64,000 nucleotides of DNA from Acidimicrobiia bacterium. GTDB taxonomy: Bacteria; Actinomycetota; Acidimicrobiia; Acidimicrobiales; Bin134. Location: positions 32,095 to 96,094 of the forward strand of contig VYCQ01000039.1 in NCBI GenBank assembly GCA_009843865.1, written 5' to 3'. Below the pieces are notes generated by a model. That model was not told the origin of the DNA, ran no database searches, and worked only from the letters and a program-made list of their open reading frames with translations. Positions 29,060 to 57,628 of the stretch are shown one piece after another. Position numbers and translations under genes: made by a program. Each line of letters begins with the position of its first letter. Within the stretch, counting starts at the first letter, position 1.

Positions 29060-30538
29060 CTAATTGATCTGATGAGTTTGGGTTGAGGGTAAGTTGATTA
29101 GTTCAGCGCCGGGGAATGCTTCCATGAGTTGGGTGATGGTGTTTTGTGTGTTGGTTTCTGTATTTTGATCTTCAGAGCTTTGAGGCTCAGTGCCTTTAGC
29201 GTTGGCCTGTTTAGTAGCTTGGGTATGCTTTGGTTGAGCTTCTTCGGATTGTATGATTGCGGCGGCGGTGTTGTCGGTTGAAGTTGTAGATCTTTTGTTG
29301 TTAGTTTGAGCTTGTTTTAGCGCTGCTCGGGCACGATCGGGCCCTCGTGAATCGTTCAAGTTTTGTGTATTGGGTGGTTTGTCGTTGCTGGATTGTGATT
29401 GGGTGGATTCATCGCAGGAAACGGCTGGTGCCGCAGATCCACCGTGAAGCTCAAGGCGTTCTAGCCGCTCTAAGATGGCACCCGGATCGGTATCTATATC
29501 TCGATTTGTGAGTCGTCCTAAGGCCACCTCTAAATCCACTCTTGGATCAGGAGCTTGGCGCATGTCCACTAAAGCAGTTCCTAGTACTTCTAGAGCTCGG
29601 GTGAGTCTCGCAGGTGTGATTTGGTTAGCGGTTGCTTGAGCGATTTCTTGCTGAGAATCTGTAAGGTTGCTTAAATTGGCGTTCATTGCAGATAAAAAGG
29701 CGTTGCGAAGGCGCTCTAGTACTGCTTCTCCAATGATTCGAGGTTCTCGGCCAGAGCGTAAGGCTTCGTGTACTGCCACAAAAGCTGGGCCACAGTCTTG
29801 GGTAGCTAGTGCTTTGATTATGGCATCTGCTGCATCTAGTTGATCGGTGATCTCTCCCGCGGCAATGATTTGTTCTAAGGCCGATAAGGTGTCGCGTGCT
29901 GATCCCGCTCCGCGACGAACGGCGTGGTCTAGGGCTTCCTGGCTTATTTCTAGCCCCGCTTGATCTACTATCCAGCGGGCATGATTGCCAAGTACATCTC
30001 CGTCGATAAGGTTGAATTCAAGGTGTTGGGTGCGGCTGCGTATGGTGGGCACCACCTTATGTGGCTCTGTGGTGCATAGTACGAACACCACATGTTCAGG
30101 AGGTTCTTCTAGGGTTTTAAGCAGGGCATTTTCAGCGCCCTGAGTAAGCATGTGCACTTCGTCTAGTACGTATACCTTGGCCTTGCCTGGTGAACCCATC
30201 GCTACCTTGGAGATGAGGTCTCGCACATCATCGACTTTGTTGTTGGATGCGGCATCTAGCTCGATGAGATCGTAAGAGGTGTTGTTGGCGATGCTTATAC
30301 ATGATTCGCAAGTGCCGCAGGGTTCTCCGTCTCCGGGTGGGTTTATGCAGTTCAGAGCTTTGGCAAGGATGCGAGCGGTGCTGGTTTTACCGGTGCCGCG
30401 GGGGCCGCTGAACAGGTAGGCGTGGCTTACCTTGTCTTGCTGTATGGCGTTACGCAAGGCTCGTACTACTGGTTCTTGGCCGCGTAGATCGGTGAAACTG
30501 CCTGGCCGAAAACGTCGGTAAAGCGCTTGATGAGCCAT
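29060..30538 (-). CDS. dnaX: DNA polymerase III subunit gamma/tau
   Basis: ALYRRFRPGSFTDLRGQEPVVRALRNAI, YLFSGPRGTGKTSTARILAKALNC, VYVLDEVHMLTQGAENALLKTLEEPP. Confidence 0.96.
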   Translation of the reverse strand: MAHQALYRRFRPGSFTDLRGQEPVVRALRNAIQQDKVSHAYLFSGPRGTGKTSTARILAKALNCINPPGDGEPCGTCESCISIANNTSYDLIELDAASNNKVDDVRDLISKVAMGSPGKAKVYVLDEVHMLTQGAENALLKTLEEPPEHVVFVLCTTEPHKVVPTIRSRTQHLEFNLIDGDVLGNHARWIVDQAGLEISQEALDHAVRRGAGSARDTLSALEQIIAAGEITDQLDAADAIIKALATQDCGPAFVAVHEALRSGREPRIIGEAVLERLRNAFLSAMNANLSNLTDSQQEIAQATANQITPARLTRALEVLGTALVDMRQAPDPRVDLEVALGRLTNRDIDTDPGAILERLERLELHGGSAAPAVSCDESTQSQSSNDKPPNTQNLNDSRGPDRARAALKQAQTNNKRSTTSTDNTAAAIIQSEEAQPKHTQATKQANAKGTEPQSSEDQNTETNTQNTITQLMEAFPGAELINLPSTQTHQIN

Positions 30539-30641
30539 CTGTATCGACTCTACCTAACTAGAACGACACAATGTTTAAGCCACGATGTTTAAGCCAACGC
30601 TAAGATTAACTATAAGAGCCTTAGCTGGAGGCATTTATGTG

Positions 30642-30805
30642 CCTGTTTTCAAATGTGCCTGTTTTCAAATGTGATGGCCAGGCTGTCTGCGGCACACTCT
30701 AAGTTCCGCTGAGAGCTGCTGCCTCCCGGCCCTGACTCGGTTCACAGGTTAGAGTTGCACAGGACCCGACCATCACATTTCAAATCAGGTACATTCCAAA
30801 TCAGA
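30642..30805. repeat. Inverted repeat flanking the SRP RNA core; each arm is itself a 16-bp tandem duplication
   Basis: Left arm 30642-30677 (cctgttttcaaatgtg x2 + atgg); right arm 30770-30805, whose reverse complement is tctgatttggaatgta cctgatttgaaatgtg atgg. Confidence 0.8.
30671..30776 (-). ncRNA. ffs: Bacterial signal recognition particle RNA (4.5S-type core)
   Basis: Reverse complement contains gtcagg-gcc-GGGA-ggc-agcagc (GNRA tetraloop plus symmetric-loop signature) inside gatggtc...gccatc pairing; upstream of dnaX on the same strand. Confidence 0.88.
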
Positions 30806-30872
30806 TTTAAGCACAGGATACTACTAATCGGTGCTGGTTGGCCTGCTGAGCTGAAGTAAATTTGTTGTTGTT

Positions 30873-30957
30873 GGAGGGGTGCGAGAGCGGCCGAATCGGC
30901 ACGCTTGGAAAGCGTGTGTGGCATTAGTCACCGTGGGTTCGAATCCCACCCCCTCCG
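30873..30957 (+). tRNA. tRNA-Ser(GGA)
   Basis: Acceptor ggagggg/cccctcc, anticodon stem-loop cacgc-ttGGAaa-gcgtg, long variable arm, T-loop ttcgaat. Confidence 0.96.
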
Positions 30958-57532: not shown

Positions 57533-57628
57533 GGAGGTGTTTGAGCACCTGGTGGGCTCCCCCGCCTTCAAAGCGGGTGGGACGGGTGATCCCTGTCCGG
57601 CGGGTTCGATTCCCGTCCACCTCCGCCA
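57533..57628 (+). tRNA. selC: tRNA-Sec(TCA)
   Basis: ggaggtgt...cacctccGCCA, anticodon loop ctTCAaa on cccgc/gcggg stem, long variable arm ggacggg-tgat-ccctgtcc, T-loop ttcgatt; 96 nt including encoded CCA. Confidence 0.85.

Follow-up and report, generated by a model that had tools for sequence, protein, structure and literature searches.

The only SRP RNA gene of the genome under study probably encodes an RNA that lacks the Alu domain and carries a long helix 5 of a form shared by the entire order; the distal end of this helix appears to have been rebuilt from 16-nt tandem copies, the outer of which would be nearly neutral, and the extended stem would serve as a closing stalk. The gene is located on the minus strand of the window, that is, the whole stretch of 64,000 nucleotides analyzed here. 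Its core, at positions 30673-30771, was identified with cmscan as Bacteria_small_SRP (RF00169; 72 bits, E 4.5e-14), with full coverage of the model (positions 1-97) and a score above the curated cut-off of 40 bits; the initial annotation, which had assigned the locus to SRP RNA and proposed an Infernal search, was thus correct on this point. A single RF00169 match was found across the whole genome, and the ffh and ftsY genes are ordinary. The core contains the conserved tip for Ffh binding, GTCAGG..CCGGGAGG..AGCAGC, and the helix 8 tip, GTCAGGGCCGGGAGGCAGCAGC, aligns to RF00169 and includes the conserved internal loops and a tetraloop of the GNRA type (GGGA).

The SRP RNA gene is flanked upstream by a divergent tRNA gene, classified as Ser by its long variable arm (30873-30957, plus strand; RF00005, 50.9 bits), which adjoins it and limits the space available on that side, and downstream by dnaX (29060-30538, minus strand; a 492-aa ORF). 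The assembly (G000) comprises 1.79 Mb in 43 contigs, smaller than the genomes of the genus relatives, and a genome of this size also contains a selenocysteine tRNA gene (window positions 57533-57624; RF01852, 68.9 bits).

The 186-nt minus-strand segment whose folding had been recommended forms one long hairpin (-80.9 kcal/mol, z = -7.07; none of 200 shuffles was as good). Instead of a hairpin of about 100 nt that ends near the ends of RF00169, we observed a helix that exceeds the Rfam model, both in G000 and order-wide, as the initial annotation had claimed for this locus. Extension pairs are counted here outward from the Rfam 3' end, with pairs 1-15 belonging to the inner of two modules and pairs 16-31 to the outer one; the innermost pair of the inner module, G-C, sits at the edge of the Rfam model. 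Among 46 other genomes of the order, pairs 1-18 are paired in register at a frequency of 0.86, compared with 0.38-0.46 when slid by up to four bases, and the pairing is 0.88 within genomes vs 0.586 +/- 0.016 between genomes (permuted). In an alignment of 25 genomes, changes on both sides are seen in 26 of the 28 pairs of the terminal helix, 92% of the cells are paired vs 35-47% when slid, and the covariation score is 0.648 vs 0.252 for shuffled and 0.11-0.17 for slid alignments; none of 500 shuffles was as high on any of these measures, and RNAalifold recovers the extended terminal helix unaided. The compensatory changes, together with the in-register pairing, indicate that the inner extension is an RNA structure under selection. 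Judging from these alignments, a helix of about 18 bp past the Rfam ends is common to the order and is older than the duplication in G000. The proposal of a selected helix therefore stands for the inner module, which pairs and covaries across the order, and not for the outer module, which is confined to G000 and for which selection had been deduced from the duplication itself.

One mismatch recurs near a fixed site of the stem order-wide, often as C.C at extension pair 5 (A1 columns 15/128); the alternative found in the genus is G.G at pair 7 plus U.U at pair 3. This recurrent mismatch is possibly a conserved kink.

With the large SRP model (RF01854), the scores in the order do not exceed 91.8 bits and no Alu domain was detected, compared with 110-193 bits and lengths of about 260-278 nt in 34 genomes that belong to the class but not to the order and carry the Alu domain. 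Beyond the order, relatives mostly possess this large form of the RNA, both in the class and in the phylum sampled. Like those of many members of the order, the G000 RNA obtains its better score from the large model (88.4 bits vs 72 bits from the small model), and the match to the large model spans 180 nt vs about 260-278 nt in the Alu-bearing class members; the neighboring tRNA gene leaves little room for an Alu domain in G000. The long helix 5 of the large model is represented by the paired, covarying flanks, its homology being assigned by position and not by sequence. In its core hairpin, its Ffh-binding tip and the absence of the Alu domain, the G000 RNA resembles the 4.5S-type small SRP RNA (RF00169), from which it differs by a helix that continues for about 31 pairs past the Rfam ends, about 18 of these in register order-wide, and by a predicted length of about 168 nt vs 97 model positions. 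With the scRNA-type large SRP RNA (RF01854) it shares the long helix 5 but not the Alu domain. The simplest reading is that the SRP RNA of the order dropped the Alu domain and retained helix 5, with the homology discernible by position after the sequences had diverged.

Our class and phylum samples (genomes G060-G132 and G133-G206, respectively) place this loss in a broader context. Low RF01854 scores (70-90 bits) were also obtained for four genomes of the family f50 (G072, G077, G081 and G112) and one genome of the family f47, so that the Alu domain may have been lost more than once, or its loss may predate the order. The family f50 is a second family of the class with an Alu-less SRP RNA and an extended helix. 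In the phylum sample, RF01854 scores above 120 bits were found in 48 genomes from other classes. Large SRP RNA is present in much of the sampled phylum, contrary to the statement, made in 2006, that the Alu domain is absent from all Actinobacteria (PMC1586193). The 17 streamlined genomes of genus g52 of the family f44 (0.9-1.1 Mb, 83-94% complete) matched neither the small nor the large SRP model; their SRP RNA may be very divergent or may have been missed by the stricter filters applied to large samples.

The distal part of the G000 helix consists of tandem modules, as delineated by a repeat finder. The left arm on the plus strand is CCTGTTTTCAAATGTG twice (30642-30657 and 30658-30673; 16/16 identical); on the minus strand, the right arm reads TCTGATTTGGAATGTA (30805-30790) followed by CCTGATTTGAAATGTG (30789-30774), 13 of the 16 nucleotides being identical. 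In the RNA, the inner module combines the 5' arm CCTGATTTGAAATGTG (30774-30789), part of the order-wide extended helix, with the 3' arm CACATTTGAAAACAGG (30658-30673), and the outer module combines TCTGATTTGGAATGTA (30790-30805), a second tandem copy found in G000 only, with another CACATTTGAAAACAGG (30642-30657), which has the same register and period as its counterpart in the sister genome G004. Tandem repeats as strong were obtained in none of 500 dinucleotide shuffles for the 5' arm and none of 300 for the 3' arm, and the 5'-arm repeat is the strongest among the order and genus genomes scanned; a 16-nt tandem in each arm of an inverted repeat had been correctly described from the outset. 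The same holds for the mismatches recurring at equivalent positions of the two modules, G.G at pairs 7 and 23 and A.A at pairs 11 and 27, to which an A.C at pair 16, the module junction, is to be added. The remark that most differences between the modules give G.U wobbles is true but rests on two of the three positions at which the 5' copies differ, the third being the one that yields the A.C at pair 16.

In a tree of the first 330 residues of dnaX aligned across genus and order relatives, G000 and G004 are sisters (support 99/91), and the loci of both have a G+C content of about 52% vs 64-68% in the other loci of the genus. The 3' arm of G004 contains CACATTCGAAGCCGGG twice, followed by a worn third copy (L004:1599-1646), and the 16-nt repeat is present in this arm only; in its 5' arm, a single inner unit follows AGCAGCTGGGCTAAGGG, a leader similar to that of the genus (CATCTGGGCCGTGNG). 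Since the sister genome is duplicated in the 3' arm only, the two arms probably were not duplicated together, and given the genus-like leader in G004, the 5' duplication is most simply assigned to the G000 lineage. The comparison suggests that the 3' copies most likely came first, in the common ancestor of G000 and G004, and the 5' copy later; the changes of the lineage are present in both G000 5' copies, so the 5' copy was made after those changes. The full 3' copies are identical within G000 and within G004 and different between the two, which implies homogenization or a repeated event, and two parallel 3' duplications in G000 and G004 are possible. Measured from the -10 box to the core, the 5' arm of G000 exceeds those of the other members of the genus by only 5 nt, indicating that the older leader was replaced and not simply extended. 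Small tandem repeats downstream of the SRP core are also present in relatives (14, 14, 14 and 13 nt in G002, G008, G018 and G004, respectively), so replication slippage is a sufficient, and the probable, cause of the duplication. The 13-nt repeat of G004, CATACAGTCACCA, occupies L004:1663-1714. Six genus members have GTG at 16-nt spacing in the 5' arm, and one member without the duplication has CAC at 16 nt in the 3' arm, which is suggestive, and only that, of a shared short direct repeat acting as the slippage substrate. Templated copying, with the 3' arm giving rise to the outer 5' copy, is less likely because this copy has, at the two mismatched sites, the A and the G that are specific to the 5' arm, and it resembles the inner 5' copy more closely (13/16 vs 11/16, counted by eye).

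The initial annotation took the duplication on both sides with pairing retained as a sign of a selected or coordinately duplicated helix. This argument is not supported: the extension spans the order and predates the duplication, G004 is duplicated in the 3' arm only, and the recurrent mismatches are a product of copying. The outer copies pair because they are duplicates of two arms that were already paired; the outer pairing and the recurrent mismatches thus follow automatically and are no evidence of selection, and the three changes since the duplication, two to wobbles and one breaking a pair, are no evidence either way. The outer module would be near neutral or mildly useful. It is unlikely, in our judgment, that this RNA helix has been growing by stepwise in-register tandem duplication in both arms, the second duplication having become fixed by restoring the pairing, and with G004 as the intermediate and G000 as the end state. 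Direct selection on the outer module, whereby the RNA requires a stalk of about 30 bp, for instance as a substrate to be measured and cut by RNase III or as a site of protein binding, and the 5' duplication was fixed by restoring the pairing of the 3' arm, we regard as quite improbable. The pairing of the outer module is worth about 8.5 kcal/mol, a stability matched by only 2 of 300 sequences obtained by shuffling the outer 5' arm, the spacing from the -10 box to the helix base in G000 stays near 10 nt, and at least seven genus members (G002, G003, G005, G008, G013, G018 and G019) possess a distal helix that is unrelated in sequence and well paired, a hint that distal pairing may be worth keeping. 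However, the outer module is present in one genome, where its pairing is automatic after duplication, the differences between the copies keep pairing twice and break it once, several genus members have only a weak distal helix, and order-level pairing beyond pair 16 is only modestly above permuted values and close to chance (0.47 vs 0.41 for pairs 17-24; largest of 1000 permutations, 0.50).

A candidate -10 box of the SRP RNA gene, TATCCT (30815-30820, minus strand), places the predicted start near 30806-30809, immediately beyond the helix base. Of 66 genomes of the genus and order, 47 have a TANNNT box between -4 and 14 nt from the helix base (median 7 nt), vs 12.7% expected from shuffles, and the transcript should therefore begin at the base of the stem. 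The consensus scan of the SRP strand revealed no sigma-70 promoter pair, and no intrinsic terminator (a GC stem followed by a U tract) was found on the minus strand. The predicted transcript, of roughly 168 nt, would start near 30808 and end near 30641; the mature RNA might not include the outer module. In Bacillus subtilis, the scRNA precursor is matured by RNase III (PMC3328962), and an RNase III gene (rnc) is present in G000. Under our preferred reading, the whole order would share an SRP RNA that has no Alu domain and whose helix 5 is long and straight, and the distal helix would have been rebuilt in this lineage from 16-nt tandem copies, in the 3' arm first, in the shared ancestor, and then in the 5' arm. 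The extended stem would act as a closing stalk that joins the ends of the precursor for trimming, possibly with RNase III-type cleavage of the stalk, and would shield the RNA ends from exonucleases. Processing and protection by such a stalk, for which length and pairing would matter rather than sequence, is the most likely role.

The flanks might instead lie outside the RNA and form a DNA-level inverted repeat, for instance a regulator site or an element that is mobile or a dispersed palindrome, and an inverted repeat with tandem units adjoining a tRNA gene would be in keeping with this; nevertheless, such an origin is highly improbable given that the both-arm module occurs nowhere else in the genome, that the inner part shows the covariation of an RNA helix into which the SRP stem runs without a break, and that the candidate promoter lies just outside the inverted repeat. 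A dispersed palindromic or mobile repeat was rejected by the genome search, which recovered the SRP locus only, plus one match with two mismatches to a single 16-mer. We give equally little credence to the 3' copies being alternative partners of the 5' arm that switch the folding of the pre-SRP RNA or the expression of the downstream dnaX: there are two identical 3' copies in G000 and two full copies and a worn one in G004, but pairing of the inner 5' with the outer 3' copy is negligible (probability sum 3e-9), so that pairing in an alternative register was rejected, and the minus strand lacks a detectable terminator. Ahead of dnaX, TAGAGT is located 8 nt from the ATG (window 30538-30560, minus strand), and TAAAGT or TAGAGT is found at this place in many relatives too, which suggests a leaderless dnaX transcript from its own promoter.

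SRP RNA is universal; to our knowledge, gain and loss of its length are little documented. We found no publication on the SRP RNA of this order in the literature searched. Here we describe an order that lacks the Alu domain and yet has a long-stemmed SRP RNA, beside Alu-bearing relatives in the same class, and, within it, one lineage whose stem grew through small duplications and whose sister genome shows the duplication in one arm only. The long helix is a selected feature of the whole order, and the module duplication a lineage-specific variant, probably produced by slippage, for which a role is possible.
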